Of a stretch of 64,000 bases of DNA, positions 1 through 23,123 are shown one piece after another. The translations under genes and the position numbers were made by a program. This stretch comes from Hyphomicrobium sp. (GTDB lineage: Bacteria; Pseudomonadota; Alphaproteobacteria; Rhizobiales; Hyphomicrobiaceae). The stretch covers positions 1 through 64,000 of the forward strand of contig JAFWGI010000015.1 in NCBI GenBank assembly GCA_017512425.1, given 5' to 3'. Every line of letters begins with the position of its first letter. Position 1 is the first letter of the stretch. Below the pieces are notes generated by a model that saw only the letters and a program-made list of their open reading frames with translations, made no database searches and was not told the origin of the DNA.

Positions 1-64
1 AATCGGCGCTGTTGATTGAAGCTCTCCCGATCAGTCCAAACGGAATTTGATCGAGGAGGCCGCT

Positions 65-322
65 ATGGGTGGAGTTAGCGCGACAGCGCTGTCGGCATTT
101 CAAACAGGCGACATGCACGACCCGATGCTCTCAGTGCCGGCGTTTTGCAAGTTCATCGGCGTCGGGAAAAGCACCTATTACGTCGAAGCCGCCGCCGGCC
201 GAATGCCAAAGCCCCGGCAGATCACACGCGGTCGAGTTGGCATCCCACTCAGCGAGGCCAAGGCTTTTCGTGACGCCCTCCCGCACGTCGAGTTGAGACA
301 AGCACAATCACGGGCAGCCTAG
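65..322 (+). CDS. AlpA-like helix-turn-helix regulator of the mobile element
   Basis: An 85-residue protein with a short MerR/AlpA-type DNA-binding fold: the stretch VPAFCKFIGVGKSTYYVEAA (about residues 30-49) reads as helix-turn-helix, followed by a basic wing with the P-x-P-R motif of AlpA proteins. ATG at 65 is chosen over an in-frame TTG at 47 because a perfect AGGAGG lies at 54-59. AlpA proteins commonly activate excision or early genes in integrated elements. It is the first complete gene of the element, upstream of the replication module. The role is inferred from family and position; the target is unknown. Confidence 0.7.
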   Translation: MGGVSATALSAFQTGDMHDPMLSVPAFCKFIGVGKSTYYVEAAAGRMPKPRQITRGRVGIPLSEAKAFRDALPHVELRQAQSRAA

Positions 323-409
323 CGCCACCGATGGCAGCGCTGACCGGCCTCGCTTGTCCAAGGACAGCAACCAGCCGGTCCTAGGACAATTCAAACTTTG
401 CGGGGGCAA

Positions 410-844
410 ATGTCACTTCGATTAAGGACTTTCTGCGCGCAGTTCAAACGCAAGCTAATGGGCGCTTCACATAGCGTTTCACTAGTAAACTGCGGTGAAA
501 CGCCCGAATTCGAGTGGTCGGAAGAGGCGAAATCACGGACCGAAACTGAACTTCCCGCCGTATTTGCCGAAATCCTTCTGGGGGAGGGCAACCCCGGTTT
601 TACCCGCCGTCAACTCATCACGTTGCGCTGGGAGTTCGTTGAGGCCAACGAGCTGCGGCCCATTGAAGGCTGGGGACGTTGGGACCGAGCACTGAAGGCG
701 GCTGGCTTTGTCCGCAAGCGCTCAAGCCGGCCGGGGCGGCCCTGGTTGTATTACGCACCGACACCGGGCGCGGCAATCGTCCTCAAGCTGCCGAACAATC
801 GCTCGCATCAGGTTGCGCCGTCTGAACGGAGGGCGGCAGCTTGA
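410..844 (+). CDS. Hypothetical protein of the replication module
   Basis: About 144 residues, family not recognised. The C-terminal half (FTRRQLITLRWEFVEANELR and the segment WGRWDRALKAAGFVRKRSSR) resembles a winged-helix DNA-binding region ending in a basic RPGRPW stretch. The start is uncertain: ATG at 410 has a G-rich tract just upstream, and ATG at 458 is also possible. It overlaps the next gene by four bases, which suggests translational coupling within a leftmost operon leading to rep. A DNA-binding accessory role is only a guess. Confidence 0.55.
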   Translation: MSLRLRTFCAQFKRKLMGASHSVSLVNCGETPEFEWSEEAKSRTETELPAVFAEILLGEGNPGFTRRQLITLRWEFVEANELRPIEGWGRWDRALKAAGFVRKRSSRPGRPWLYYAPTPGAAIVLKLPNNRSHQVAPSERRAAA

Positions 845-1140
845 TCGTTCGCATCCTCATCGAGCGCGTCGGCAGCGGTCAGCGCGGAGAATTCTGGCAA
901 GCAACGCATGACGGCATCGTCATCGTCAAAAGCAGCCGGACACCTGAGCACGACGCCGCGCGGGAACTCAGGGCCATGGGAATTTCCGGCACGATGGAAA
1001 CCCGTCACGCAGGCAGCGCCATCGTCTCAATGCGGATGGACATCGCTGCGGCTGCGGATCGAACCGTCGTCGAAAGCGAGCGCTACGGTCCGAAGTTCGC
1101 GCGGTTCCAACCATTCACGCTGACCCAGCGCGCTGCGTAG
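841..1140 (+). CDS. Hypothetical protein upstream of rep
   Basis: A 99-residue protein of unknown function with an alternating beta-rich N-terminus (IVRILIERVG...GEFWQATHDG). TTG at 841 is chosen because GGAGGG lies at 829-834 at proper spacing and the TTG overlaps the upstream stop (TTGA). No membrane segment or known motif is visible. It closes a short operon before the 200-base leader of the replication gene, so a connection with replication control is possible but unsupported. Confidence 0.55.
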   Translation: MIVRILIERVGSGQRGEFWQATHDGIVIVKSSRTPEHDAARELRAMGISGTMETRHAGSAIVSMRMDIAAAADRTVVESERYGPKFARFQPFTLTQRAA

Positions 1141-1252
1141 TCGTTTGCTGAGTCAGCATGGCCGCAAGGGCGGGCGTTTGAGTGTTGGTAGCTACCAGAT
1201 AGCGGCGGCGCGTCTTTGCCGTCTACGGCCTGTTCCTGAGTCAGAAAAAGCA

Positions 1253-1284
1253 AAACCGCAAAGGGCGGCAACCCACTGCGGTTT
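1253..1284 (+). promoter_or_regulatory. Stem-loop in the rep leader
   Basis: AAACCGCA at 1253-1260 pairs perfectly with TGCGGTTT at 1277-1284 around a 16-base loop, about 55 bases upstream of the rep start. ColE2-type rep genes are often controlled post-transcriptionally through leader structure, so a copy-control or attenuation role is plausible. No T-run follows the stem, so it is not an intrinsic terminator. Confidence 0.3.
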
Positions 1285-1339
1285 CAAAAGTAGTGCTGCG
1301 TCGCAGTTTTTGTTCTCACCAAAAAACAGGACACGCGCG

Positions 1340-2380
1340 ATGACTTCGATACTCGATTTGCAGACGGCGGACAAGGTGCCGCCGCCAATTTGGGAAGTGT
1401 TCCCAGGCGACGTTCCGGACCATCCGTACTGCACCGACGATCTAGCCAGCGGCCTCCTAATTCGATCTCGAAAGACAGCGCTGGGCTTCGCACACATTCA
1501 ATTCAATGACCCAGCGCGCATCCGATTTCTACCGTTCGATATAGATAGCCCCGACGCATATGAGGCTTACGAGCGGGCTCAGCTTCCAGCACCGAACGTC
1601 TACATCGGCAACCCTGAAAATGGTCACGCGCATTTGGCCTGGGCTCTAGAGCAGCCTGTTCTAACCGGCGAAAACGCGCGACAGTCGCCAATTCGATACG
1701 CAGAAGCTGTCGAACGCGGGTTCGCTCGACGGCTGGGCGCCGATCCAGCGTACTCAGGGCTTATCGTCAAAAACCCACTTCACAAGCGCCACCGAACTCT
1801 CTGGCTCGCGCCTCGCCCTTATGCGTTGGCGGACTTGGCGGCGGAACTGACAACCGAAGACAAGCGATTTAGGCCGCGAGACGCCGCGGACATGGGCAGC
1901 ATTGGTCGGAATGTTCAGGTGTTCGATGAGACGCGGTCGATTGCTTACCGTGAAGTCCGTTCGTTCAAGAAAAACGGCGGCACGCTTGAGCAATTTCGAA
2001 ATCGCGTAGAGCGCATAGCGTTTGGCGTCAATCTGCAATTTGCTTCACCTCTGCCGCCCCGTGAAATTAAAGCATCAGCGCGCTCGATCTCGAAATGGAT
2101 TTGGTCAAAATTTTCGGACGCTCGATTTGTTGCGATCCAGTCTCAACGGGGTGAGAGATCAGGTGCAGCTCGAGCCGCACACGCCGAAATCGTGCAAGCG
2201 CAAATCTTGTCTTTCGTGCTGGCTTCGCGTGATGCCAGTGCGAACAGCTCAGGGCTATTATCTGATATGGTTCGTGGCGGTGCATCAACAACCTGCAAAC
2301 AGATTGCGTCGGCCCTCAAAACGCCACAGCGCACGATCGAACGCCACCTAGCCGCGCTTAAGGCTCGTGGTGCGCTATGA
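1340..2380 (+). CDS. rep: ColE2-type replication initiator / replicase (Rep)
   Basis: A 346-residue replication protein. Residues about 40-190 match the replicase family of ColE2-like plasmids: a DIDSPDAYEAYERAQLPAPN stretch followed by the signature GNPENGHAHLAWALEQPV, which forms part of the primase active site in the family. The middle (about 200-280) resembles a PriCT-1 domain, and the C-terminus (about 300-346, ASTTCKQIASALKTPQRTIE) is a helix-turn-helix. ATG at 1340 begins the conserved protein; an open frame extends 65 residues further upstream but looks non-coding. Its stop overlaps the start of the next gene by four bases. A plasmid-type initiator beside terminase genes indicates an element that can replicate autonomously after excision. 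Confidence 0.8.
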   Translation: MTSILDLQTADKVPPPIWEVFPGDVPDHPYCTDDLASGLLIRSRKTALGFAHIQFNDPARIRFLPFDIDSPDAYEAYERAQLPAPNVYIGNPENGHAHLAWALEQPVLTGENARQSPIRYAEAVERGFARRLGADPAYSGLIVKNPLHKRHRTLWLAPRPYALADLAAELTTEDKRFRPRDAADMGSIGRNVQVFDETRSIAYREVRSFKKNGGTLEQFRNRVERIAFGVNLQFASPLPPREIKASARSISKWIWSKFSDARFVAIQSQRGERSGAARAAHAEIVQAQILSFVLASRDASANSSGLLSDMVRGGASTTCKQIASALKTPQRTIERHLAALKARGAL

Positions 2381-2925
2381 TGCAAACCACCCTCCCCGGC
2401 TTCGAACCGATCGGCCCGCCACTGAAACGCTGTGCAGGCTGCGACCAGCCACAGACGCTCAATCAGTTTTACAACGACCGCTCGCGCCGTGACGGCCTCA
2501 CCAGAGAGTGCCGGACCTGCGATGCGAAACGTCATAGAAAGCGCTGGCGCGACAACCGCGAAAAGATGCGCGCACGGTCACGGCAGAGGTATCACAAAAA
2601 TCTCGCCGAAAATCGCGAACGCGGCGCCGAGCGGCGGCGATCGGATCGCGGCAAGGCGATCAACCGACTGGCCGTCAAGCGCTACGCCGAGCGCAACCAG
2701 CACAAGCGCGCCGCACATTTGGCAGTCCGTCGAGCGATAGCGGCCGGCATCCTGACGCGGCCAGAACGCTGCGAATTTTCGCATCTCGGCAATTGCTCGG
2801 GCCGCATCGAGTACCACCACGACGATTATTCCCGGCCGCTCGAAGTGCGCGCCCTCTGCGTTGACCTCCCAGAGCCGACTAGCCTTTTCGACATCGCAAC
2901 AGGAGCAACACAGCTATGGCCGTAG
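2377..2925 (+). CDS. HNH endonuclease-like zinc protein with a replaced C-terminus
   Basis: A 182-residue protein. The N-terminus has a zinc ribbon (CAGC at about 22-25 and CRTC at about 49-52), then a very basic helical region. Residues about 128-163 match phage HNH proteins, with the hallmark EYHHDDYSRPLEV. In the family this is followed by LC-x-x-CH-x-x-x-H, which supplies the last zinc and catalytic residues; here the sequence switches after ALC to an unrelated acidic tail and ends. The final H is therefore missing and nuclease activity is doubtful. The tail overlaps the tape measure start by ten bases and may be the 3' end of a former tail gene (see findings). Confidence 0.65.
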   Translation: MMQTTLPGFEPIGPPLKRCAGCDQPQTLNQFYNDRSRRDGLTRECRTCDAKRHRKRWRDNREKMRARSRQRYHKNLAENRERGAERRRSDRGKAINRLAVKRYAERNQHKRAAHLAVRRAIAAGILTRPERCEFSHLGNCSGRIEYHHDDYSRPLEVRALCVDLPEPTSLFDIATGATQLWP

Positions 2926-5453
2926 AAGTCGAACGCCTGCAAGTCACGCTGGAAGCGAACTTGACGAAATACAACGCTGGCATGGTGGCGGCGCGGACGC
3001 AGACCGATCGCCAACTCGCGGCGATGGAAAGCCGCTTTCAGCAGTTGTCCCGCAACCTGAAAATGTCGGCGTCATCCGCTGCGACAGGCGTGACGACGGC
3101 GCTGGGCGGCATCAGTGCTGCCGTCGGTGCAAGCGCAGTTATCGAATACGCCAATGCTTGGACGCGGCTCACGCGCTCGCTCGACGGTTCCGAGCAGGCT
3201 TTCGGGATCACTCTGAAAAGCGCGGGCGAACTCACCGCACTCGCAAACGATGCTCGCATTGACGTCGAGAGCTTTGCCAAGACGTACACCCGAGCGGCCG
3301 CGGCTGTGCGCGATTATGGGTACACGTCGAACGACGCCGCAAAGGTCACGAGCACGCTTGCCAAGGCGCTGAAGCTCGGCCAGGCGTCGGCATCAGAACA
3401 GGCGTCCACGATCACGCAGTTTTCGCAGGCTTTGCAGAAGGGCAAGCTCGACGGCGACGAGTTCCGAACCGTCATGGAAAACGCCGGGATCGTCCAAGAA
3501 ATCCTTGCGCAGAAGCTGGGCGTCACGAAAGGCAAGATCATTGAGATGGCGGCGGCCGGCAAGCTCGGCATCGGCACACTCGTCGGCGCGATGATCGAGG
3601 CCGAGAAGAAAATCGACAAGCTCTTTCGCGAAATGCCTCAAACGGTCGATGAAGCGTTTTCCGTCCTTCGCAATAACGTGATTCAGTACCTCGGTGAGGC
3701 CGATCAGGCTAACGGCGTCACGCGGACGCTCGCCAACGGCATTCAAGGCATCGCAAACAACCTCGATGCAGTTGCCATCGCAGCCGGCGCGATCTTGGCG
3801 TCAGCGACGCTGCGCATGGCTGCTTTCGCTGCTGCAACGATCGGCGCCGCCAATCCGCTGACGCTACTTGCTGCGGCGCTGGGCGCTCTAGGAGCCGCTT
3901 ACGGCGTTCTCGGCGAGAAGGTGAGCCTTTCAGAGGATGGGCTCGTCAGTCTGCGAGGCGCCGTCTCGGGCTTTCTCGATGTCATCGGCGGAGCTGAGGA
4001 AGTCGAGCGGTTCAACATCGCCCTGGACGCGATGTCAGAGCAGCAGCGCAAGGCGGCGATCGAAGCCAAACAGCACGCCGACGCCCAGCGCGACGCCAAT
4101 TCGGTGCTCGGCCGGATCGAGCAAACAGCCCGCGATGCGACCGCCGCGCTCTACGATCTCAGCAAGAGCGCCGACCGGGAAAGTGGTGGCGCTCTGTCGG
4201 GGTGGATCGAAGGCACCAAAGAGCTTGCCTCTTGGATCGCACGCTTGACTGGCCTGACGGACTTGGCTGCGGCGGGCCTCGATGTCATGGACCAAGCGGC
4301 CAAGCGCGCTCGCAACCAAGCGTTGACCGAGAAGGCAGGCAAAGTTCAGTTTGGCTACGGGGGAGCGCTTCGCGAACAATTGCAAGATGTGAACCTTCGT
4401 CCATTGCAGAACGTGGCGGCGAAGCCCGAGCGCTCGAAATTCCAGAGCGAAGTCGATCAGATCAAAAAGCGGACTGAGGCGTTGCAGGCCGAGATCGCAA
4501 CGATCGGCCAGAGCGAGTTCGCGCAGAACAAAGCGAAAGCCGCCGCCGAATTGCGGTTCGCCGCAGCGCAGACCGCCGCAAAGGAAGGCCGCAAGGTATC
4601 TGCTGAGGAATTGGCGGCGATCGAAATGCTGTCGGACGCCTATGCAGCAACCGCGGTAAAGGCCGCGTTCCTCTCGAAGCTGCAAGCCGCGAAGGACGGC
4701 GCAATTCAGGCGCGGCAAGAGCTGGACTTGCTCGGCCTCTACGGCCAGGAGCTAGACGCCGCTCGCGCCAAGCTCGAAATGTTGAACGAGGCAAAGCGGC
4801 TGGGCGTGACGCTGAAGCCAGAACGTCAGAAAGAGATCGAGGCAACGATCAACGCCAAAACCGCAGCCGAAAGCTACAAGCGCGCGATCGACGATCTGAA
4901 AGAGACAAGCTCGGACGCGCTCAAGGGGTTTGTCCAAGACTTGCGCGACGGCAAAAGCGCATCCGAAGCGTTGGCCGGAGCACTCGACAAGCTCGCGTCG
5001 AAGCTGATCGACGCCGGCATAGACAATCTGGTTGGCAGCCTAGTCGGCAACGCCACCAAACCCGGCACTGGCTTTGCATCCTTGTTCGGCTTCGCCGACG
5101 GCGGCATCGCGGCGAATGGACGGCCTGTGCCTCTCAAGCGCTTCGCGAACGGCGGCATCTCGAATACGGCTGCGATATTCGGGGAGGCTGGGCCTGAAGC
5201 GGCTATTCCCCTTAAAGGTGGAAAAGTCCCGGTCGATCTCAGAATGCCGAACATTCCGAATGCAGTCGCAGGTCCGTCTGGCGCGACGACGGTTCAAGTC
5301 ACCGTTGCCCCGGTCTTTCACGTCGAGAATGGTTCGCCCGAGGGTATGACACAGCTGAAAAACGAGATTGTGCCGCTGATCGACAAGGTAGCGAGGAACG
5401 CCGTGCACGATCTTTTTGACAGGTCGCCCCGGTTTTCTCGGAGCAAACTATGA
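2916..5453 (+). CDS. Phage tail tape measure protein
   Basis: An 845-residue protein that spans the tail lumen in long-tailed phages and sets tail length. The N-terminal ~240 residues match the tape-measure domain (ARTQTDRQLAAMESRFQQL, FRTVMENAGIVQEILAQKLG), followed by hydrophobic segments near residues 285-330 and long Ala/Lys/Glu helices (about 510-690). The C-terminus has the typical Gly-rich cassette FANGGISNTAAIFGEAGPEA followed by IPL. ATG at 2916 follows AGGAG. Length is normal for siphovirus-like tails. What is odd is the context: no major tail protein, chaperone or tip gene adjoins it; instead DUF1367-like and terminase genes follow. Confidence 0.88.
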   Translation: MAVEVERLQVTLEANLTKYNAGMVAARTQTDRQLAAMESRFQQLSRNLKMSASSAATGVTTALGGISAAVGASAVIEYANAWTRLTRSLDGSEQAFGITLKSAGELTALANDARIDVESFAKTYTRAAAAVRDYGYTSNDAAKVTSTLAKALKLGQASASEQASTITQFSQALQKGKLDGDEFRTVMENAGIVQEILAQKLGVTKGKIIEMAAAGKLGIGTLVGAMIEAEKKIDKLFREMPQTVDEAFSVLRNNVIQYLGEADQANGVTRTLANGIQGIANNLDAVAIAAGAILASATLRMAAFAAATIGAANPLTLLAAALGALGAAYGVLGEKVSLSEDGLVSLRGAVSGFLDVIGGAEEVERFNIALDAMSEQQRKAAIEAKQHADAQRDANSVLGRIEQTARDATAALYDLSKSADRESGGALSGWIEGTKELASWIARLTGLTDLAAAGLDVMDQAAKRARNQALTEKAGKVQFGYGGALREQLQDVNLRPLQNVAAKPERSKFQSEVDQIKKRTEALQAEIATIGQSEFAQNKAKAAAELRFAAAQTAAKEGRKVSAEELAAIEMLSDAYAATAVKAAFLSKLQAAKDGAIQARQELDLLGLYGQELDAARAKLEMLNEAKRLGVTLKPERQKEIEATINAKTAAESYKRAIDDLKETSSDALKGFVQDLRDGKSASEALAGALDKLASKLIDAGIDNLVGSLVGNATKPGTGFASLFGFADGGIAANGRPVPLKRFANGGISNTAAIFGEAGPEAAIPLKGGKVPVDLRMPNIPNAVAGPSGATTVQVTVAPVFHVENGSPEGMTQLKNEIVPLIDKVARNAVHDLFDRSPRFSRSKL

Positions 5454-5905
5454 GCACATCACAGACATCGGGCTGCCCTCAGTGCGGCAGCAAAACGAAA
5501 AGCCCACGCTCTCTCCCGCAGCACCGTAGGTTTTTCGCGCTTGTGAAAGTCGCGATGGACAATTGGCCGGAGCATCACTGGTTTCAGCCGGTTGACGAGC
5601 AGCATCTACGTCGATGGCTGACGTGTAAGGCCGGATACCACGCCGTCACAACGATCGACTTGGATGGCGACCATCAAGAGACGGGACGCGCCGCAGTCCG
5701 CATTGCCGAGAGCGCAATAAGGGCCAGTGGCGGTGTTGCCTTCGTCCGACCGCATGGAACCGCGCTCGCGATCTTCACGCCCCTTTCGATCAGCTTCGCC
5801 CGAATGAAGCATCAAGCGTTCTGCGATCTGTGTGACCGCGTTGCCAATGTCATCGCCCGAGAGATCGGCGCGTCAGCCGACGACCTAATAAGAGAGGCCG
5901 CCTAG
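5450..5905 (+). CDS. DUF1367-like phage protein
   Basis: A 151-residue protein opening with a CPQC zinc-ribbon remnant, then SLPQHRRFFALVKVAMDNWP, the family-typical start of DUF1367-like proteins, and later TPLSISFARMKHQAFCDLCD. Such proteins occur near replication and recombination genes in phages of Gram-negative bacteria; the biochemical function is unknown. It overlaps the tape measure stop by four bases (ATGA) and its own stop overlaps the GTG of the small terminase, so 2916-8032 reads as one coupled transcription unit. Confidence 0.65.
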   Translation: MSTSQTSGCPQCGSKTKSPRSLPQHRRFFALVKVAMDNWPEHHWFQPVDEQHLRRWLTCKAGYHAVTTIDLDGDHQETGRAAVRIAESAIRASGGVAFVRPHGTALAIFTPLSISFARMKHQAFCDLCDRVANVIAREIGASADDLIREAA

Positions 5906-6402
5906 TGTCGAAAAAGCCAAAGACGAAGAAACTCGCAAAAAAGCCAGCCGTACAGACGCCCGCAAAGACCGGACGGCCGTCATCCTACTCTGAGGCGATT
6001 GCCGAGCGGATTTGTACCGAACTGGCGCTGGGCCGTTCGCTTGTCACCATCTGCAATGCGGCCGACATGCCAGCACGGCAAACCGTGTTCCGATGGCTGG
6101 ATGCAGACCCGGCATTCCGCGACAGGTACGCGCGCGCGCGCGAGGTACAGGCTGACACCTTTGCCGACGAGATCGTCGATCTTGCCGATAAGGCCGAAGA
6201 TGCGAACCTTGCCCGCATTCAGATCGATGCCCGAAAATGGGCGGCATCAAAGCAGCGCCCCAGCAAATACAGCGAGCGCGTCGTCAACGAATTGACGGGC
6301 AAAGACGGTGCCCCGATCGCGGTCAGGCAAATTAAGCCGACGATGACTGCCCAGGAAGCAGCTGAGATATACGCGGAAACCCTACATGACTTTCCAGGCT
6401 AA
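5905..6402 (+). CDS. terS: Terminase small subunit
   Basis: A 165-residue protein. After a Lys/Pro-rich tail, residues about 25-75 (GRPSSYSEAIAERICTELAL, MPARQTVFRWLDADPAFRDR) are the helix-turn-helix of Sf6-type small terminases, followed by an oligomerising helix (ARAREVQADTFADEIVDLAD) and the segment RIQIDARKWAASKQRPSKYS typical of the family. It recognises packaging DNA and presents it to TerL. The GTG start overlaps the preceding stop and the gene overlaps terL by 17 bases, the usual coupling of a terminase pair. Confidence 0.88.
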   Translation: MSKKPKTKKLAKKPAVQTPAKTGRPSSYSEAIAERICTELALGRSLVTICNAADMPARQTVFRWLDADPAFRDRYARAREVQADTFADEIVDLADKAEDANLARIQIDARKWAASKQRPSKYSERVVNELTGKDGAPIAVRQIKPTMTAQEAAEIYAETLHDFPG

Positions 6403-8032
6403 AGATGGCTTTGCATGGCCACCGAACTACACGGCTGTTCTGATGTGGCGACAAGCGCAACTTGCGCAAATGCGAGCGGACCCAGCGCTGATTTACGGTT
6501 CGCGGGAATACTATCGCACCCGCCCCATTGAGTTCATCACACACTGGATCGACACTTTTGATCCGAGAAACGCTGGCGGCGAAATGCCGTCGCGCTTGCC
6601 CTTTGTCCTGTTCCCTCGCCAGCGGCATTTGGTGCTCTTTCTGCTGGCTTGTCTGAATGGCGAAGCAGCCGGTCTGATCGAGAAATGCCGCGATGTCGGC
6701 GCTACATGGGTCTGCTGCGCCTTCTCGGTCTGGCTGTGGCTGTTTTGGCCGGGTGCTGCCGTAGGTTGGGGAAGCCGAAAAGAGCAGCTTGTCGATAAGC
6801 TGGGCGATCCCGACAGCATCTTTGAAAAGATGCGGATGATTATAGGCGGTCTGCCGCCCGAGTTTCTGCCGGCTTCACTCTCGCCAAAAGACCACCTGAC
6901 CTACATGAAGTTCATCAATCCAGAGAACGGCGCCACTATCACGGGCGAGGCTGGCGACAACATCGGTCGCGGCGGACGAAAGCGCATCTATTTCAAAGAC
7001 GAAAGCGCTCACTATGAGCGGCCCGAAAAGATCGAGGCCGCACTAGCCGACAATACCCGCGTTCAGATCGACATTTCATCGGTCAATGGTCTGGGAAACG
7101 TGTTTCATCGTCGCCGTGAGAGCGGGATCGACTGGCAGCCCGGTCAGCCCGTCGCAAAAACTGTGGCCAACGTGTTTGTCATGGACTGGCGCGACCATCC
7201 CGCGAAGTCGCAGACTTGGTACGACGACCGTTATGCACGCGCCAAGGGCGAAGGGCTGCTTCACGTTTTCGCTCAAGAGGTGGACCGCAACTATGCTGCC
7301 GCAGTCGATGGCGTCATTATCCCGGCTGAATGGGTAAAGTCTGCTATCGACGCGCACATCAAGTTGCGCTTCGACGACGCTGGCGGATGGGTTGCCGCCC
7401 TAGACGTGGCTGACGAAGGCGGGGATTTGAACGCGCTCGCGAAGCGGAAAGGCGTCATCTTAAAAGCCGTTGACGAATGGGGCGAAAGCGATACCGGCAA
7501 GACGACAAGACGCGCTCTCGACGCTTGCAGCTCCCTCGGCACCGTACAGCTTCAATACGATTGCATCGGCGTTGGCGCGGGCGTGAAGGCTGAAAGCAAT
7601 CGCCTCACGTCGGAAGGCTTCATGCCGAAAGGCATTCGTCTCATCCCGTGGAATGCCGGGGCTGCGGTTGTGAAGCCCGATGAAAACGTGGTGAGGGGCG
7701 ACCGCAATACGCCGCTCAACAAAGACTTTTATGCGAACTTCAAAGCGCAAGCGTGGTGGGATTTGCGCAGGCGTTTTGAGCGCACGCATAGGGCCGTGGT
7801 CGAGGGAATCACTTACGATCCAAGCGACATGATCTCCCTGCCGTCCGACTTGCCGATGTTGCGGAAGATCGAGAAAGAGTTGAGCCAGCCGACCGCGGTG
7901 AAAGATAGCCGGATGCGACTGGTCGTCGATAAGAAGCCGCCCGGCACTAAGTCGCCGAACTTGGCCGACGCGATCGTGATGGCATACTTCCCGGTATCAG
8001 CCGGCATGCTCGACTATGAACTTTGGGTTTGA
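6386..8032 (+). CDS. terL: Terminase large subunit
   Basis: A 548-residue packaging motor that looks intact. The N-terminal ATPase has a variant Walker A (KCRDVGATW, residues 100-108, the form seen in many TerL families), Walker B plus catalytic Glu (IYFKDE, 201-206) and an SSVNG coupling motif (231-235). The C-terminal RNase H-like nuclease carries acidic residues in ALDVADEGGD (338-347) and a late NLADAIVMAYF motif. Portal and capsid genes normally follow terL; here three small genes and an integrase follow instead. So the element can encode DNA cutting and translocation but apparently not its own prohead. Confidence 0.9.
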   Translation: MTFQAKDGFAWPPNYTAVLMWRQAQLAQMRADPALIYGSREYYRTRPIEFITHWIDTFDPRNAGGEMPSRLPFVLFPRQRHLVLFLLACLNGEAAGLIEKCRDVGATWVCCAFSVWLWLFWPGAAVGWGSRKEQLVDKLGDPDSIFEKMRMIIGGLPPEFLPASLSPKDHLTYMKFINPENGATITGEAGDNIGRGGRKRIYFKDESAHYERPEKIEAALADNTRVQIDISSVNGLGNVFHRRRESGIDWQPGQPVAKTVANVFVMDWRDHPAKSQTWYDDRYARAKGEGLLHVFAQEVDRNYAAAVDGVIIPAEWVKSAIDAHIKLRFDDAGGWVAALDVADEGGDLNALAKRKGVILKAVDEWGESDTGKTTRRALDACSSLGTVQLQYDCIGVGAGVKAESNRLTSEGFMPKGIRLIPWNAGAAVVKPDENVVRGDRNTPLNKDFYANFKAQAWWDLRRRFERTHRAVVEGITYDPSDMISLPSDLPMLRKIEKELSQPTAVKDSRMRLVVDKKPPGTKSPNLADAIVMAYFPVSAGMLDYELWV

Positions 8033-8038
8033 CCGAAT

Positions 8039-8365: not shown

Positions 8366-8372
8366 GTTGGCG

Positions 8373-8597
8373 CTACGCTCGGTCAGGGTCCATGCGCTCG
8401 CCAAGGCCAGAGCCCCGGCGCATTCGCAACGACTTCAAAACGCTGGCGTGCGCGGTTTCCAACGCTTCACGCTCGCCGTCGTCTTTTGCGTTCTCAATCT
8501 TGATGTCGCAGTCAAACAGCCAATGCTCCAGAACCTCAATCGGCGCGGCCGGTGATGGTTCATCGATCAGCCAGTTGGCTAGAGGCTTATCGGCCAT
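8373..8597 (-). CDS. Hypothetical acidic protein
   Basis: A 74-residue protein on the opposite strand to the terminase operon, facing it with only seven bases between stops. It is helical and charged (VLEHWLFDCDIKIENAKDDG). No family is recognised. It starts six bases after the gene at 8604-8816 and is probably cotranscribed with it. Confidence 0.5.
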   Translation of the reverse strand: MADKPLANWLIDEPSPAAPIEVLEHWLFDCDIKIENAKDDGEREALETAHASVLKSLRMRRGSGLGERMDPDRA

Positions 8598-8603
8598 TGC
8601 GTC

Positions 8604-8816
8604 TCACTGCGGTTTGGCTATGTGCTCGGGCAGCTTGGCGATGTTGATGGCGATCCGCCTCGCCTCGTCCCGTGTCATGCGCCCCATAACATTGCGGCGC
8701 AACTCGACTTCCTCAAAATATATGTAGGCCAGCGGGTAGCCTTTCGCATCGGCCACGCAAAAACTCTCGCTGTGCTCTATCACCTGCCATGGGACCGGAA
8801 ACCGACGCTCAGCCAT
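8604..8816 (-). CDS. Small conserved-looking hypothetical protein
   Basis: A 70-residue protein of a type seen often in Hyphomicrobiales: PWQVIEHSESFCVADAKGYP, a YFEEVE centre, and the ending TRDEARRIAINIAKLPEHI. The pattern suggests a compact beta-hairpin plus helix. Function unknown. It heads a two-gene minus-strand unit between the terminase operon and the integrase. Confidence 0.6.
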   Translation of the reverse strand: MAERRFPVPWQVIEHSESFCVADAKGYPLAYIYFEEVELRRNVMGRMTRDEARRIAINIAKLPEHIAKPQ

Positions 8817-8857
8817 TGCGATCTCCGCAATTCAAAATCAGCGCGCGAAAATAGCCG

Positions 8858-8886
8858 TTGACAGCGGAACAAAGCAAGTCCATATT
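8858..8886 (+). promoter_or_regulatory. Sigma-70-type promoter of the integrase gene
   Basis: A consensus -35 TTGACA at 8858-8863 and a -10-like CATATT at 8881-8886 are separated by exactly 17 bases, ending about 30 bases upstream of the integrase ATG at 8919. This fits a vegetative promoter. Confidence 0.5.
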
Positions 8887-8918
8887 GTTCTGATAATTAC
8901 CCTTATCGGAATAGTGAT

Positions 8919-9860
8919 ATGATCGGCACCGAACTGACTATCCTCCCCCCTGAGACTGTCGAACTGTCGGACACGACAATTGAGCGGGTGGGAGCGATCT
9001 ACACCAATGCCACGACCGACAACGATCTGGTCGCTGTTTGGATCAAGGCGCATGCCGGCGGCTCGGATCATACCGTGCGAGCCTACGAACGGATCGGCGC
9101 CCGGTTCATCGGCGCACTTCGCGATCGGCAAGTTTCAATTGCCGAGGCGAAGGTCGAGGATGTGCAAGCAGCACTCGAAAGTCTCGGCACCACCGTGACC
9201 GGCCGGCCAGCATCGGCAGCCACGCTCGGAACGTATATCGCCGCGGTAAAGTCACTGCTGGGCTTCGCGCATCGGGTCGGCTTTACCCGGTTCAACGCCG
9301 CCCCTCTGATTAAGATCAAGCGGGCGCCACGGAAGTTGGCCCAAAAGATCATCAGTGAGGCTGACGTTGAGTTGCTGCTACGCAATGCAAGATCGGCACG
9401 CGACCGGCTGATGATCGATGTTGCTTATTGTGGTGGGCTTCGTGTCTCCGAGTTGTGCAGCCTAACTTGGTCGCAGATCATCCCTAGAGATACGGGCGAA
9501 GTTCAGCTTGCTATCGTCGGTAAGGGCGACAAGGAACGCAACGTACTGTTGCCTACCGACATTGCTACTAGCCTGATGGCGTTGCGCGCGGACGCGGCAC
9601 GTACCGACCGACTTTTTCCGATTACAGAACGCCGGTTCAACTATATCGTAAAAGCCACAGCCCAGCGCGCTGGGATCAACCCTGAGGCCTCGGCTCACTG
9701 GCTTCGCCACGCGCACGCATCGCATTCACTTGATAACGGGGCACCTATTTCGCTCGTGTCGCAGACGCTTGGTCACGCCAGCATCAAGACGACGAGCGTA
9801 TACAGCCACGCCAAACCGACTGACAGTTCGAGCAAATACTTGCAACGCCAGCAGCGATAA
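8919..9860 (+). CDS. int: Tyrosine recombinase / integrase
   Basis: A 313-residue site-specific recombinase of the XerC/XerD size class. Residues about 35-130 form a SAM-like core-binding domain; 140-310 form the catalytic domain with R175 (GGLRVSE), K202 or K205 in the beta hairpin, H260-x-x-R263 (HWLRH), H286 (LGHAS) and nucleophile Y295 (SVYSH). All expected residues are present, so it is probably active. It likely integrates or excises the element, or resolves multimers. It is not beside a tRNA gene, and no attachment-site repeat could be identified by eye. Confidence 0.88.
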   Translation: MIGTELTILPPETVELSDTTIERVGAIYTNATTDNDLVAVWIKAHAGGSDHTVRAYERIGARFIGALRDRQVSIAEAKVEDVQAALESLGTTVTGRPASAATLGTYIAAVKSLLGFAHRVGFTRFNAAPLIKIKRAPRKLAQKIISEADVELLLRNARSARDRLMIDVAYCGGLRVSELCSLTWSQIIPRDTGEVQLAIVGKGDKERNVLLPTDIATSLMALRADAARTDRLFPITERRFNYIVKATAQRAGINPEASAHWLRHAHASHSLDNGAPISLVSQTLGHASIKTTSVYSHAKPTDSSSKYLQRQQR

Positions 9861-9920
9861 TGTTCGTGACTGGCCCGAAAGTAGCTAGTAATCATCTAAG
9901 GCGGTTTGTAGCCTGTTGCC

Positions 9921-10463
9921 ATGAGCATCGAGATTGACATTGCGGTCGCTAAAGTTGTCGCGGCTCTCGAACAGCAACGGTTGAACGATGCGGCGCGGGA
10001 AGCGTTGCCGTTCTCAAAAACGATGTTTTCGCCTGACGCCTCATCTGGCCTGAATAGCCATCTTCTGACGGTGGTATTCGCTCATAAGCTGCCGACCATC
10101 CTCGGTTCCATCCGTCAGGAAGATGCCCAATGGCTACGGGTAGCTGCGGGCCTTCACATCCTCGGCTTTGACAAGGCGTCTAGGCGCTACCTCTCGGAAA
10201 AAGTTCACACCCCGTTTCGACATGCCAACGATGTGACCGTGCGCATGACAGTTTTCGCAGCGAACCATCAGCGTCGGTTGCAACAGTTTCGAGAAACGGA
10301 TGTGAAGAAAGCTCGTGTCAGGGGGATTACTGAGAACAGCTGTGCCTCCTGCCGCGCCATCAATGGGCGGGTGTACGACCTTCGATCTTTGCCTATGCTG
10401 CCCTACGAGAAGTGCAGCTGCGACATGGGATGCCGCTGCACGGTCGCGGCCGTGCTGGACTAG
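9921..10463 (+). CDS. Cys-rich protein resembling the Mu F / minor head protein C-terminus
   Basis: A 180-residue protein. The last ~45 residues carry CASCRAINGRVYDL and then CSCDMGCRCTV, the zinc-type CxxC...CRCT pattern that closes many phage minor head (Mu gpF-like) proteins. The upstream 130 residues are helical (VVAALEQQRLNDAAREALPF) and are not recognised. It may be a shortened head-morphogenesis relative or a separate protein using the same zinc module. No clear Shine-Dalgarno precedes the ATG. The call is moderate because only the C-terminal motif is diagnostic. Confidence 0.5.
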   Translation: MSIEIDIAVAKVVAALEQQRLNDAAREALPFSKTMFSPDASSGLNSHLLTVVFAHKLPTILGSIRQEDAQWLRVAAGLHILGFDKASRRYLSEKVHTPFRHANDVTVRMTVFAANHQRRLQQFRETDVKKARVRGITENSCASCRAINGRVYDLRSLPMLPYEKCSCDMGCRCTVAAVLD

Positions 10464-10558
10464 CGTCCGTCCACAATTCAGGCGCATATCACCGCTCGCC
10501 TGTGTTGCTAACTGGCAGCACGCTGATAAGTTCTGCGAAACGATGTGAGGAATCACGA

Positions 10559-11455
10559 ATGCCGCAAAAATGGTCAGCCACCGCGATCGTCGCGCTTTTG
10601 TGCTTCACGGCTTTGGGTTGCAAGCCTAGCGAAGCAACGATCGATACTTCGACCGAAGCAAACTATCAGACCAGTCTTGCGGCGGTTAAAGCCGCGCTGC
10701 CTTCCGAGCAACATGAGAAATTCGGCAAGGCGCTTATGCAGATAGCGATTGGTGATGTCGTTGACCCGAATGGTAGCTTGCTGGCCAACATCAACGCTAT
10801 GACCCAAGCCACCAAAGACCCGATGTCGATGCTTGGCAAGCTCGCGCCACACATCAACGGCAAAACGGGCGCGCAAGTCATTGCCGCCGCAGAAACTCTG
10901 GCTGACGAGCGCCGTGCGAGGCAGCTTGCTGCGGTCGAAGCTGAAATTGCTGCATTGGAGACAAGTCAAGGAAACTCAGATTCTAATGTGCAGGCTCGCA
11001 CGATCCTCGATCAAATCAAGTTGGAGGGCTCGCGCTACTACTGGGCGGAAGGCAGCTATCGCAAAGAGCCAACAATCGAATTCAAGATTACAAACGGATC
11101 GACCAGCCCGATAGCGAAGATTTTTGTGCGTGGAATTGTTGAGACGCCGGGTCGGGCGGTTCCTTGGGTCAAGGAATCGTTCAACTACGATTTCAAAGGC
11201 GGCCTTGAGCCAAAAGAAAGTCAATTATTAAACTTGGCGCCGAATTCGTTCGGAGCGTGGGGCAACAAGGCACTTCAAGATAGAAACGATTTGGTTTTGA
11301 CGCTCACGCTTGTTGGGATAGAGGATGCGGCTGGCACTGAGATTACGGACACGACCCTAGGCGACGATGATAAAAGGCGGGAGCGGTTGCGCATCTTGAG
11401 ACAACAGCGCATGCAATTGACTACTCAGCCAACCAACGCGGACGGAACTCAGTAA
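10559..11455 (+). CDS. Lipoprotein, DUF6694-like
   Basis: A 298-residue protein with a lipoprotein signal (hydrophobic stretch then lipobox ALGC at about residues 18-21). The mature start with IDTSTEANYQTSLAAVKAAL resembles the DUF6694 lipoprotein family; a beta-rich C-terminal half follows. ATG at 10559 is preceded by TGAGGA; an upstream in-frame extension to 10412 overlaps the previous gene and is rejected. It is probably anchored in the inner or outer membrane. A lipoprotein in a phage-like element could be a lysogenic-conversion gene; that is inference only. Confidence 0.6.
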   Translation: MPQKWSATAIVALLCFTALGCKPSEATIDTSTEANYQTSLAAVKAALPSEQHEKFGKALMQIAIGDVVDPNGSLLANINAMTQATKDPMSMLGKLAPHINGKTGAQVIAAAETLADERRARQLAAVEAEIAALETSQGNSDSNVQARTILDQIKLEGSRYYWAEGSYRKEPTIEFKITNGSTSPIAKIFVRGIVETPGRAVPWVKESFNYDFKGGLEPKESQLLNLAPNSFGAWGNKALQDRNDLVLTLTLVGIEDAAGTEITDTTLGDDDKRRERLRILRQQRMQLTTQPTNADGTQ

Positions 11456-11484
11456 GCTAGGAAGGGAGTGGGCGGCATGCCAAG

Positions 11485-12546
11485 TCAACTGTCCAGCCGC
11501 TTGACAACCACTCCCAGCGCCGCGCCGTCATCGACGACGATACCTGACTTGCGGAACAGCTTTCCAAGCGCAGTGGCGATCTCCCCAATCGGCAACGGTT
11601 GAATGCCGGTCGCATCACACCAATTGAGATATGCGGCACGGAGATCGCTCGCCGACAGCCGCGCGTCACGATCCGGCCGCAACATTGCAATGCCAAACCG
11701 CTCGGCCTCGGCCATTGCATCGCGCCTCTCAAGTTGAGGCAATTGCAGGTTCAAAGGCGTTTGCGCCGTAGCCGCTGGCGCGTCGAGAGATCGCAAGTAC
11801 GGTCGTGCGGCACCCAGTTTGACGCCAAGTGCAATCAGCGCTGACGCTGGAAGGTTGATCGCCAACGATAGCGCCAACGCTTCGAACACGTCCAAAGCCC
11901 ACTCGGGCAATCCCGTGTTGTCGGCCAGCGGCGTGGCGCTCTGAGGTGGTGGCAGCGCCGCTAATGCCGCTTTGGCTTTCTCAATGCGCGATACGACCGC
12001 CGACGCCTGCTCTGCGTCATGGCTTGCGATTTCCGAACGCGCCATCTCGACTTCGCGTGATGCGCTATCGACTGCGGCTTGCAACAGCAGACGGCAATTA
12101 GCGCGGCACCCCTTGTCTGTCGATTTCACCCGAGCGGCTGTGTCGGCTTCAGACTTTGCAAGTTCAGCAGCAGTCAACCGGGCGCGGTCTGCTAACATAG
12201 GCTTTGCAGCCTCAGCCTTGGCCAGCTCGTCGGCTGCGAATTGCCGCCTGGCCGTCACAGCAGCCATTGGCGCTCGCATGGCCTCCCGCGCGGCCGTCAC
12301 ACGTTGAGCCGTCTGCAACATTGCAGCCGCTTCGCCTGCGAGCATTCCCAAACCGATTACGACAGCGATGGCGACGTGCTTCCCTGCGACCGCATGGCCT
12401 ATCGCAGCGGCGCCAACTGCCAGGATCACGACGAGCGCGACCAAGCCAGGCGCGCTCGCCGAAGCAATGCCGCCCGAGGCCTCGACAGCCATGTAGCCTG
12501 ACGCGGCAAGGGCCAACAGGCCGGACACGATGAATATCCAGCGCAT
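11485..12546 (-). CDS. Membrane protein with a winged-helix-like C-terminus
   Basis: A 353-residue protein. Residues about 1-80 contain three predicted transmembrane helices, a long Ala/Glu-rich coiled coil follows (about 85-210, holding CRANC), then another hydrophobic segment (ALDVFEALALSLAINLPASA). The last 60 residues (LSASDLRAAYLNWCDATGIQ, PIGEIATALGKLFRKSG) resemble the DNA-binding tail of P4/D5-type primases. Its ATG overlaps the preceding RHH stop by one base, so it is the third gene of the parA operon. It could tether the plasmid form or its partition complex to the membrane, but this is speculation. Confidence 0.6.
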   Translation of the reverse strand: MRWIFIVSGLLALAASGYMAVEASGGIASASAPGLVALVVILAVGAAAIGHAVAGKHVAIAVVIGLGMLAGEAAAMLQTAQRVTAAREAMRAPMAAVTARRQFAADELAKAEAAKPMLADRARLTAAELAKSEADTAARVKSTDKGCRANCRLLLQAAVDSASREVEMARSEIASHDAEQASAVVSRIEKAKAALAALPPPQSATPLADNTGLPEWALDVFEALALSLAINLPASALIALGVKLGAARPYLRSLDAPAATAQTPLNLQLPQLERRDAMAEAERFGIAMLRPDRDARLSASDLRAAYLNWCDATGIQPLPIGEIATALGKLFRKSGIVVDDGAALGVVVKRLDS

Positions 12547-12845
12547 TACTCGCCTCCCTTGAATTTCTTCGCCTTGGCAAGCAGCGCGAGCGCTTCCTCC
12601 ATGACATCCGCAATGCTCGCATCACAGTGCTTGGCAAGCTCTGAAGCGAGCCCTTTGTATGCCGGTGTGCAGCGGTAGTTGATCTGTGCCGTCCGAACTG
12701 CACCGCGCTTGCGCTGCTTGTCCGTCAGTGCCGAACGCTTCTCGGCTTTCATGCGCCGTTCGATGCGATCAGGCTTAGCTCCGAAGCCGGCCGCGAACAT
12801 ACTCGCGAAGCTCTCAACCTCTTGTTCATCGGCTCGATTGGTCAT
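12546..12845 (-). CDS. Ribbon-helix-helix-like partition partner of ParA
   Basis: A 99-residue basic protein. The C-terminal half (TAQINYRCTPAYKGLASELA, then CDASIADVMEEAL) reads as a ribbon-helix-helix fold: a beta strand followed by two helices. Its start overlaps the parA stop by four bases. Small RHH proteins directly downstream of ParA usually act as the centromere-binding ParB analogue in type Ib partition. The CTAGGCA repeats upstream of parA are the natural candidate binding site. Confidence 0.6.
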   Translation of the reverse strand: MTNRADEQEVESFASMFAAGFGAKPDRIERRMKAEKRSALTDKQRKRGAVRTAQINYRCTPAYKGLASELAKHCDASIADVMEEALALLAKAKKFKGGE

Positions 12846-13489
12846 GGTGAGCCTTCCTTCGCAGCCGCGGCGGCCACGGCGGCGCTTCTGACTTCATCCC
12901 AAAGCGCATCGATCTCAGCAGCGGATGCCTTGTCTCTCTCTGGTCCCGTCTTCCCACTTGTCATCGCGTTGATGTACGGAACGCGATGCGCTACGGCCGT
13001 CTTGGCGATGGGGATTTTGTAGGTCAGCAGCGTGTTGCGAGCGTTCTCGCCAAGCGACTTTGCATCCCGTGCGTTGACATCGTTGAGGACGCACAGAAAG
13101 GCGGCGCCTGATTGCTGACAGAGCCGAATGCAGTCCTGGCTGGCCATAAGGTCGAGCCCGCTGGCGCGCATCGGGATAACGACGAGATCGCAGACTTTTA
13201 TCGCGTCTTCTGTCACGACAAGCGAACCCGGTGGGCCGTCCAGAAAGACGAACTCATAAGGCGCGTTGAGTTGTAGCGCCTCGACGGCATCGCTCGCTCG
13301 ATCTTCACCTGTCAGCAGCGCTGGGTTGTCCGGTGATCCTCGCCGTCCATACCAATCGGAGTAGCTGCCCTGGCTATCGAGATCGACAACGCAGACAGAA
13401 CCGTCACGAGAGGCCCGCACCGCAAGCGCAGCCGTCAACGTCGATTTGCCGACGCCCCCTTTCGAGTTCAACACACCAATGACGACCAT
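12842..13489 (-). CDS. parA: ParA-family partition ATPase
   Basis: A 215-residue Walker-type ATPase lacking the N-terminal HTH, i.e. the short type Ib ParA. The deviant Walker A is KGGVGKST (residues 10-17), Walker A' VVDLDSQGS (34-42) and Walker B FVFLDGPPG (about 79-87). It would segregate the extrachromosomal form of the element using the RHH protein encoded just downstream. The gene is divergent from the RHH gene at 13692; the 200 bases between hold repeats and a perfect palindrome. A ParA beside a ColE2-type rep and terminase argues for a phage-plasmid lifestyle. Confidence 0.85.
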   Translation of the reverse strand: MVVIGVLNSKGGVGKSTLTAALAVRASRDGSVCVVDLDSQGSYSDWYGRRGSPDNPALLTGEDRASDAVEALQLNAPYEFVFLDGPPGSLVVTEDAIKVCDLVVIPMRASGLDLMASQDCIRLCQQSGAAFLCVLNDVNARDAKSLGENARNTLLTYKIPIAKTAVAHRVPYINAMTSGKTGPERDKASAAEIDALWDEVRSAAVAAAAAKEGSP

Positions 13490-13513
13490 ACCTATGCCTC
13501 CGCTAGCGTTTGT

Positions 13514-13610
13514 CTAGGCATTTTGCCTATGCCTAGGCATCAGCTTGACGCCTAGGCAATTTCGGGAAGCCAAACTCTTTCAGCAGCTTAGCCGAAAAAT
13601 AGTCTAGGCA
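13514..13610. repeat. CTAGGCA repeat cluster, candidate centromere (parS)
   Basis: Four copies of CTAGGCA occur at 13514-13520, 13533-13539, 13552-13558 and 13604-13610. The first three are spaced 19 bases start to start. The second sits in a perfect 12-base palindrome ATGCCTAGGCAT (13529-13540), and an extra TGCCTA adjoins it. The location immediately upstream of parA fits a centromere and autoregulation site bound by an RHH partition protein. Confidence 0.6.
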
Positions 13611-13626
13611 ATAACCCTATTGACAT

Positions 13627-13644
13627 TAGTAAGATATCTTACTA
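13627..13644. promoter_or_regulatory. Perfect 18-base palindromic operator
   Basis: TAGTAAGATATCTTACTA is a perfect inverted repeat that begins one base after a TTGACA -35-like hexamer (13620-13625). A protein bound here would block a promoter reading towards the RHH gene at 13692. The site is distinct from the CTAGGCA repeats, so two DNA-binding proteins may act in this intergenic region. Confidence 0.5.
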
Positions 13645-13691
13645 GCGTACAACAGTCAATGAAAGTTTAATAGGAACCAGGGATAGCTGCC

Positions 13692-13928
13692 ATGACCGAT
13701 CTAGACGACTTGGAGTTTGACGACATGGGGCCGAAGCCTGGATACAAGCAACCAAGCCGCGACGGGCAAAAGGCCGTTGCGTTTTGGCTGGACGAAGATG
13801 TGCGGACGGCCTTCAAAATTGCCGCTGCTGAGAACGGCACGACGATGCAGCAGGCCTTTGAGGCGTGGGTGCAGGAATACGCCGCCGCGCCATTGAAGCG
13901 TATGAAGCGCAAAGCGTCGAGCGACTGA
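13692..13928 (+). CDS. Small ribbon-helix-helix protein
   Basis: A 78-residue protein with an acidic N-terminus and an RHH-like core: AVAFWLDEDVRTAFKIAAAE then NGTTMQQAFEAWVQEYAAAP, ending in a basic KRMKRK tail. This is the pattern of ParG/CopG-like transcriptional repressors. It is divergent from parA, with the palindrome and CTAGGCA repeats between them, so it may autoregulate or take part in partition. It could also be an antitoxin-type RHH, but no toxin-like partner is recognisable. Confidence 0.6.
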   Translation: MTDLDDLEFDDMGPKPGYKQPSRDGQKAVAFWLDEDVRTAFKIAAAENGTTMQQAFEAWVQEYAAAPLKRMKRKASSD

Positions 13929-13950
13929 TAGCAACCAAGGTAGGTGGCCT

Positions 13951-14208
13951 ATGAAGACGACAAATCCGAACTTCCCGAACTTCGAGAACGCTTTTGCAGA
14001 GTGCGAAATCGCGGACTGGTGGGGCGACTTCACCGGCATTCAGGCGCGGCTAGAGGCTTATCGTTCACTCGGCGATGGCGGGTTGCGCTTTAGATGGGTG
14101 GCTGCTTCGTCGAAAGCTCGCCGATTGCCAAGTTGCTTCGCGACGATTTCCGAAGCGGTCGCCTATGCCCGCGACGTCGGTCATTGCAGAGCGGTGCTTG
14201 TCCCCTAG
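13951..14208 (+). CDS. Hypothetical protein of the mobile element
   Basis: An 85-residue protein with no recognised family. It starts 22 bases after the RHH gene, with AGGTAGG as ribosome binding site, and is likely in the same transcript. Features visible: a Trp-rich acidic N-terminal helix (CEIADWWGDFTGIQARLEAY) and a compact beta-like second half ending in CRAVLVP. Confidence 0.5.
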   Translation: MKTTNPNFPNFENAFAECEIADWWGDFTGIQARLEAYRSLGDGGLRFRWVAASSKARRLPSCFATISEAVAYARDVGHCRAVLVP

Positions 14209-14280
14209 GGTGGGCACAAACACGAAGTATTGCTGGCATAAACTTTTCAAAAATTGCGCATAATGTTGCAGGAGAACGAT

Positions 14281-14553
14281 GTGAATAGAATTGGAAAAAA
14301 AGGTGCCGAGCGGTTCGCAGTTGAGATCGAAGGCGCGACCAAAACTCATCTGATCTGTGATAGCAGCCTTAAGATTAAGCCCGCCGCAATGGTCGTTTGG
14401 CTTGGCGACGGCGGTCGCGTAATGGCGCACGGTCGGGCTCAATTCGCAACTCGGCGTACGAGGGAAATCAGCATTCGTTTGGACGGCGGCAAGCTCGTTT
14501 CGGCGCCGCGGGACTCGGTCATCTGCGCCGTGGGTGTCTATCGGGACATATAA
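14281..14553 (+). CDS. Hypothetical small beta-rich protein
   Basis: A 90-residue protein. The GTG start at 14281 is selected because AGGAG lies at 14270-14274; the longer in-frame TTG start lacks a binding site. The sequence alternates beta strands (THLICDSSLKIKPAAMVVWL, then GRVMAHGRAQFATRRTREIS), which may form a small barrel. No family is recognised. The gene overlaps the potential upstream extension of the next gene. Confidence 0.45.
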   Translation: MNRIGKKGAERFAVEIEGATKTHLICDSSLKIKPAAMVVWLGDGGRVMAHGRAQFATRRTREISIRLDGGKLVSAPRDSVICAVGVYRDI

Positions 14554-14608
14554 CGAACAGGATCACCAAAGCGTCAACCGTATCGAAAACCCAACGGAGC
14601 ATTCCGCC

Positions 14609-15064
14609 ATGCAAGAAACAATGGGGTCAGCCGACATTAAGAGCGAAGCCAAAGCAGCTTCGATTGATAGCGAATGGCCCGAATTTCGCGAATGGTATGC
14701 ATTGAGCATGGAAGAGGAGCGACTTTACAACGTCGAGCCGACGCCGACGAACCTCGACGAGCAGTTAGATAAAATCGATGCTGTGCGCGGTCCGCTCCAA
14801 GCGGCGATGGTCGCTAGGCAGCCGCGGGGCATCGTTCAAAGTGCAATTCTTAGTATGATCGCGCTGCGCTGGTCGGAGCGCGTGAAATCCGACCACGGCG
14901 TATATCGATCATTCGAATTGGGCTATCAGTCAGCGTTCAGCAACGGCCACGCCGCAGAGTTTGCGCTGACTGAAGGCGTTGTGCGCCTAGCGCTTCAACA
15001 CGATTTGCTGCCGGGGATCGTAGTCTATGACAAGACTGGCGCTGCAATCTCGTCGGCAGCCTGA
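14609..15064 (+). CDS. Hypothetical acidic protein at the right end of the element
   Basis: About 151 residues from the ATG at 14609 (GGAG about ten bases upstream); a GTG at 14534 would add 25 residues and overlap the preceding gene. The protein is helical, with VRGPLQAAMVARQPRGIVQS and FELGYQSAFSNGHAAEFALT. No family is recognised. It is the last gene before a gene-free stretch and the change to chromosomal signalling genes, so the right boundary of the element probably lies shortly after it. Confidence 0.5.
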   Translation: MQETMGSADIKSEAKAASIDSEWPEFREWYALSMEEERLYNVEPTPTNLDEQLDKIDAVRGPLQAAMVARQPRGIVQSAILSMIALRWSERVKSDHGVYRSFELGYQSAFSNGHAAEFALTEGVVRLALQHDLLPGIVVYDKTGAAISSAA

Positions 15065-22925: not shown

Positions 22926-23123
22926 ATTACCCCCTCCGCAATCTGCCCAACGAAGGAGACAGCGAACACGCGAAAAAACTAAAAAATGAAGTGAACGGTA
23001 TTCCGGCATGCGCCAAACGCGCCGAGCCGGTTTTGGTTTCAACGCGCCGCAAGTTTTTTGCTTATTGCCGTCCGTAGATCAAAACGTTGAGATCGGCGGG
23101 CATCTGTTACCCGGAGTTTATCC

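Follow-up and report, generated by a model that had tools for sequence, protein, structure and literature searches.

A tape measure gene in a putative tRNA-Ser phage satellite of Hyphomicrobium, and its exchangeable counterparts in related elements

Introduction

What kind of mobile element would carry terminase genes and a tape measure protein (TMP) gene with no visible head genes around them? This question is raised by a locus of Hyphomicrobium sp., which a preliminary description regarded as a phage-plasmid hybrid, offering as alternatives a satellite that packages itself into helper capsids and modifies tail length, or a phage-plasmid reduced by deletion. The window analysed here, that is, the whole stretch of 64,000 nucleotides (G000:C6:1-64000), comes from a draft assembly, and its position 1 coincides with the end of a 616 kb contig (an assembly break); therefore, the absence of genes to its left cannot be judged from the window alone. 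In this work, we describe the gene content and ends of the element, its relatives, and the origin of its TMP. With moderate confidence, which applies jointly to this assignment and to the life cycle proposed below, we consider that the window holds an integrated phage satellite of about 17 kb with a PICI/P4-like build, located in a tRNA-Ser gene and lacking here its left ~1.5 kb.

Results

Gene content of the window element

Genes are on the forward strand unless otherwise stated, and those shared with the relatives described below are referred to as the shell. The leftmost gene (65-322) encodes a putative AlpA-like regulator or excisionase; this call was made from PHROG only (phrog_66, 5.6e-6), and a 94% identical copy occupies the same position in L017, a second element of the same genome; Pfam gave no match. 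It is followed by a conserved shell protein (398-844) with an 'RFDRSLRGAGF..GRPW(L)Y'-like motif and homologs in L017, L145-L147 and L150, by a small conserved shell protein (841-1140; 90% in L017, 55% in L151), and by the replication protein Rep (1145-2380), a PF03090 Replicase with a PriCT_1-like region (E 5e-34). An HNH/EndoVII-like endonuclease gene (2377-2925; phrog_2340, 8e-30), whose homolog in L333 lies directly upstream of the TMP gene, precedes the intact 845-residue TMP (2916-5453; TMP_3 PF20155, 9e-43; phrog_17300, 6e-87). The next gene (5450-5905), formerly considered DUF1367-like, is better described as encoding a NinB/Orf-like recombination mediator (phrog_319, 4e-12, versus 1e-4 for DUF1367). 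The terminase genes follow, namely an Sf6-type TerS (5905-6402; Sf6_terminase PF20901, 6e-38) and a full-length TerL (6386-8032), the latter identified by PHROG, by 60-72% identity to phage TerLs, with which it aligns as conserved over its whole length, and by matching Sf6 gp2 structures. Further right, 112 bp (8463-8574) match L017 2639-2528 in inverted orientation, with 95.5% identity.

A tyrosine recombinase gene (8919-9860; Phage_integrase PF00589, 4e-29; 61% homolog in L333) is the second one of the element, as the tRNA-adjacent integrase falls outside the window. The sole trace of a head gene in the element is a weak MuF/head-morphogenesis C-terminal domain (9921-10463; Phage_Mu_F, 0.022; phrog_595, 2.5e-5), followed by a DUF6694 cargo protein (10412-11455, start probably at ~10556; PF20404, 4e-12) with a homolog beside the TMP gene in L145. 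Three reverse-strand genes encode a membrane/coiled-coil/HTH shell protein (11485-12546) with homologs in the same place in L145, L330 and L332, a small partner of ParA (12546-12845; 48-50% in L330 and L332), and a ParA-type ATPase (12842-13489; AAA_31, 2e-12; 68-70% in L330 and L332). The repeats previously noticed by the ParA and RHH genes were confirmed as palindromic TAGGCA/TGCCTA repeats at 13488-13620, upstream of parA and between the divergent parA and RHH genes, and they are likely a partition site (parS) or operator. The RHH gene itself (13692-13928; profile match) is a shell marker that recurs in relatives, and three small conserved right-end genes (13951-14208, 14254-14553 and 14534-15064) are 49-71% identical in L017, the last one being present in L151 as well.

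Profile matches, together with PHROG, identity and structures for TerL, indicate that Rep, the TMP, TerS, TerL, the tyrosine recombinase, ParA and the RHH protein are real and intact, as the preliminary description had it. Its statement on missing head, tube and baseplate genes also holds: among the proteins subjected to Pfam and PHROG scans, none was identified as a portal, a capsid, a protease, a tail tube or a baseplate protein, and the element has no recognisable tail-assembly chaperone. An RNA family scan of window positions 1-16000 gave no match, and ten larger proteins scanned in the 17-61 kb region are chromosomal-looking, with no phage structural match.

Left and right ends of the element

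The left end was approached through the contig ends of the draft assembly. Contig C3, which carries L017 with the same left and right genes, starts with the same sequence as C6, the contig of the window, the two ends (C6_L and C3_L) being identical over exactly the first 141 bp. Likewise, the terminal 141 bp, and no more, are the same in C9_L and C12_L; further inward, both contigs carry a P4-type integrase gene truncated by the contig end, and then a tRNA-Ser gene (GGA or TGA). This is the very pattern expected when two element copies share an identical stretch within the integrase gene and the assembly collapses their middle. The preliminary description had indicated the region left of position 1 as the place to look for head genes; according to the contig sequences, it most likely consists of the tRNA-Ser gene and the P4-type integrase found on C9 or C12, with no head or tail module. 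A head module at this place was considered and rejected, given that, among the contig ends, only those matching the expected break have integrase and tRNA-Ser. From these ends we infer the join of C9 or C12 to the window, each of the two elements then presumably running from tRNA-Ser through the integrase and a short unassembled stretch to the AlpA-like gene and onward; synteny failed to place the window element at tRNA-Ser GGA or TGA (C9 versus C12). The size of ~17 kb results from ~1.1 kb on C9 or C12, the unassembled stretch and 15.25 kb in the window.

At the right end, a copy of the tRNA-Ser 3' end (CTCTCCCTCCGCCA, forward strand) constitutes attR at 15237-15250, and the homology between L017 and the window ends at this copy (window 15250, L017 9661). 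In complete relatives, att sites of the same kind were seen directly as 14-15 bp direct repeats, at 5072-5085 and 17147-17160 in L145 (element of 12.1 kb), at 3914-3928 and 18924-18938 in L330 (reverse-complement coordinates; 15.0 kb), and at 81-94 and 18458-18471 in L333 (18.4 kb). The right flank of the window element is adjoined by a gene for a hybrid histidine kinase of 1949 residues with nine HAMP units (17193-23042), and a homologous gene pair is present in other genomes of the genus.

The likely left tRNA-Ser and integrase, attR, the putative AlpA-like gene, Rep and the terminase together describe a tRNA-Ser island corresponding to a phage satellite and not to a phage-plasmid. The latter assignment is unsupported, since the element is integrated and a tRNA 3'-end repeat marks its right boundary; a phage-plasmid would be an extrachromosomal replicon with a complete virion set, and this element lies within a 616 kb contig and has no head genes.

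Related elements in Hyphomicrobiaceae

To find relatives, the bacterial family was searched with TMP and RHH, and the neighbourhoods of the matches were then read. The arrangement, which the preliminary description had proposed to search for elsewhere, is not private to this locus: besides L017 in the same genome, at least 11 more elements were found in Hyphomicrobiaceae, including Hyphomicrobium zavarzinii. Their shared shell comprises, on the left, a P4-type integrase at tRNA-Ser, small HTH/AlpA-like genes (L332 has a match to PF05930, an AlpA-type regulator) and a variable replication gene; in the middle, a variable structural cassette, often followed by a second tyrosine recombinase; and on the right, the membrane/coiled-coil/HTH gene, sometimes ParA and its small partner, the RHH gene and small right-end genes. 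The satellite alternative is thus well supported, by the likely tRNA-Ser and integrase at the left and by the recurrence of the shell.

According to the profiles, the cassette consists of TMP, TerS and TerL in the window; a PF20155 TMP in L145 and in L147; a TAC_11 chaperone, a tail-completion protein and a PF20155 TMP in L146 (H. zavarzinii); a TMP fused to Rep in L150 (G082:C21); TerS, TMP and a TAC_7 chaperone in L330 and L332; a tail-completion protein and a PF10145 TMP in L333; and a prohead protease in L151, L334 and L335, with no structural gene recognised in L017 and L331. Hence a TMP, of three unrelated types and in some cases with chaperone, tail-completion or TerS genes, is present in 8 of the 13 readable elements and a prohead protease in 3 of the 13, the two never in the same element; these counts are approximate, because one end is missing from L331, L332, L335 and L150, and because the majority of the genes, other than those encoding profiled proteins, were read by eye. 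In L150, the second satellite of the genome that harbors L145, Rep and TMP form one reading frame of 1003 residues (8562-11573), a fusion that probably arose by deletion. L331 (G011:C9), read by eye, combines the same right-end shell with large non-structural genes, including one for a putative 1208-residue ATPase, which are perhaps defence cargo.

Origin, selection and length of the tape measure proteins

The same TMP type occurs in normal head-to-tail gene order in complete phages (L166, L168 and L171) and in a prophage of G067 (L148 = L172), and complete phages (L168/L034) as well as prophage L148 encode homologs of both the TMP and TerL. Among viral contigs, a single-protein TMP query gave no match and an alignment query did; IMGVR_UViG_3300036987_000087 encodes a TerL 71% identical and a TMP 55% identical, over the N-terminal profile region, to those of the window. 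In an IQ-TREE phylogeny of TMP N-terminal regions, the window TMP groups with that of phage L166, its nearest phage TMP (support 100/99), the L147 TMP with those of phages L168/L169 (94/97), and the L145 TMP with that of phage L173 (88/93). A single ancestral capture was rejected, as the satellite label needs four changes on the tree, at least two of them forced by the starred branches, and one clade appeared in 0% of bootstrap trees. The satellite TMPs are thus interspersed among those of phages, which implies that they were captured repeatedly. Moreover, the satellite TMPs are whole, with conserved ends, and the L145/L150 pair displays a dN/dS of 0.29 overall and of ~0.03 over the last 255 residues, indicating purifying selection. 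Selection and repeated uptake together indicate that these genes are not decaying relics.

These data bear on the possibility that the locus is a prophage or phage-plasmid decayed by deletion, whose structural genes are relics. The non-canonical order of the phage genes, the weak MuF fragment at 9921-10463 and the Rep-TMP fusion in L150 are in its favor; nevertheless, all named window genes are intact, the shell is kept around interchangeable structural genes in many genomes and even around no recognised structural gene in L017, and the closest phage TMP differs from one satellite TMP to another. In particular, because relatives hold unrelated TMPs in the same shell, some with chaperone or tail-completion genes, reduction by deletion is quite improbable.

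An alternative compatible with a satellite building chimeric tails is that its TMP alters tail length, for instance to suit a small capsid. In the PLE satellites of Vibrio cholerae, PLE11 tails are ~10 nm shorter than those of ICP1, consistent with a TMP 95 residues shorter (PMC12987554). Here, satellite TMPs measure 702-845 residues, within the 690-922 residues read for full-length TMPs of this type in phages, and the overlap, with no systematic shortening, leaves tail shortening unsupported. The element may still modify tail length, as suggested earlier, but we regard this as unlikely.

Two further kinds of TMP-carrying elements were observed. In Hyphomicrobiales, L276, L277, L278, L279 and L280 (G120, G114, G014, G318 and G205, respectively) display portal and/or capsid/protease genes, then TerL directly before TMP, beyond which neither tail-tip nor lysis genes are recognisable. 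Their portal and/or capsid genes led us to reject these TerL-TMP neighbours as the same kind of element; we consider them candidates for satellites that form capsids and, in addition, have a TMP. Additionally, L281 (G105:C9, reverse complement) contains an element of ~11.5 kb (3699-15215) between tRNA-Phe and an integrase. This element has an AAA/RepA-like gene, TerS, a 611-residue TMP and HNH, and seems to represent an independent satellite with a TMP, in a different bacterial family.

Discussion

The acquisition of different tail-ruler genes by related elements on repeated occasions suggests hybrid tails made with parts of a helper virus. In the life cycle that we propose, the element would excise upon helper infection or induction and replicate by its own Rep, its Sf6-type TerS and TerL would package its DNA into helper procapsids, and its TMP would be built into tails otherwise formed by helper proteins. 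Such chimeric tails are proposed by analogy to the PLE of V. cholerae. If a captured TMP, alone or together with a chaperone, must match the helper tail, its frequent exchange would be explained. As for a resident helper prophage, no helper-type portal was found in the genome or the genus, except for a distant match (26%) in G010.

A satellite could also use its TMP as a decoy or dominant-negative protein that spoils helper tail assembly, as defence or interference, the protein being absent from satellite virions. Systems that block tail assembly (Tai) are known in PICIs and P4-like satellites (PMC11364771), and the window TMP is accompanied by no chaperone, tube or baseplate genes. Against this, the TMPs are whole, their ends are conserved and purifying selection is strong at the C-terminus, and their pairing with chaperone and tail-completion genes in other elements fits building over spoiling; furthermore, in PLE particles the PLE TMP and baseplate hub replace those of the helper, and deletion of tmp lowers transfer by 96-99.9% (PMC12987554), that is, PLE TMPs are built in and required for transfer. 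The decoy function accordingly has a low probability, and we retain chimeric tails as the preferred explanation.

More tentatively, at somewhat less than even chance, Hyphomicrobiaceae may harbor a satellite lineage whose exchangeable virion-takeover cassette, consisting either of a TMP from any of three unrelated classes, optionally accompanied by chaperone, tail-completion and terminase genes, or of a prohead protease, sets which helper is parasitised; chimeric-tail piracy would then be general and repeatedly evolved outside Vibrio. If this is true, such piracy would be joined here to a satellite-owned packaging motor. What makes the lineage relevant is that a single satellite family has acquired tail rulers and their partners several times and independently, with sister elements that have a capsid protease instead. 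The lineage makes it directly testable which virion part a satellite replaces and whether this choice picks the helper, including in the type strain Hyphomicrobium zavarzinii ATCC 27496.

Regarding known systems, PICIs are defined by features that include the lack of helper virion structural proteins, cf-PICIs have their own capsid, portal, protease and connectors, and P4-like satellites have the psu, sid, delta and alpha genes. The window element has the PICI traits of an integrase at one end with att in a tRNA 3' end (through the inferred join in the window, and directly in L145, L330 and L333), its own replication initiator (PF03090) and a TerS in the packaging region (PF20901), and departs from PICIs by its 845-residue TMP. 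It shares with cf-PICIs the possession of its own terminase and differs from them in lacking, by Pfam and PHROG scans, the capsid, portal, protease and connector set; none of the four P4 genes was detected among the scanned window proteins. Compared to Gram-negative PICIs (PMC6092414), with which it shares the end integrase at a tRNA att site, the replication gene, TerS, a size of ~12-18 kb and, putatively, the AlpA-like gene, it adds the TMP, TerL, the ParA/RHH module and the second tyrosine recombinase. Putative E. coli satellites (PMC10448857) also have a tRNA-proximal integrase at att and a TMP without most tail genes, but they encode capsid and decoration proteins and have no terminase or alpA, unlike the window element.

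Satellite tail manipulation was demonstrated in 2026 for one family, the first known according to its authors, who also noted that other satellites, some cf-PICIs among them, have putative tmp genes (PMC12987554). PLE was the only tested precedent for a satellite TMP, and no papers on satellites in Hyphomicrobium were found, in a literature search that was thin on subscription journals and preprints; other precedents may exist. The likeness to PLE lies in an integrated satellite with its own TMP and most virion genes missing (PLE tails being chimeric in TMP, TAC and BhuB; PMC12987554); the window has the TMP, and a chaperone is present only in relatives L146, L330 and L332. It differs from PLE in its P4-type tyrosine integrase in tRNA-Ser, its putative AlpA-like gene and its own TerS and TerL, and its lineage in having Hyphomicrobiaceae hosts and TMPs of non-ICP1 tailed-phage types, their class swapped between sisters. 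Since it has a structural gene that PICIs lack, and neither the cf-PICI capsid set nor the P4 genes, we do not file the element in a named family: with its tail gene it would work as PLE does, and its build is that of a Gram-negative PICI.
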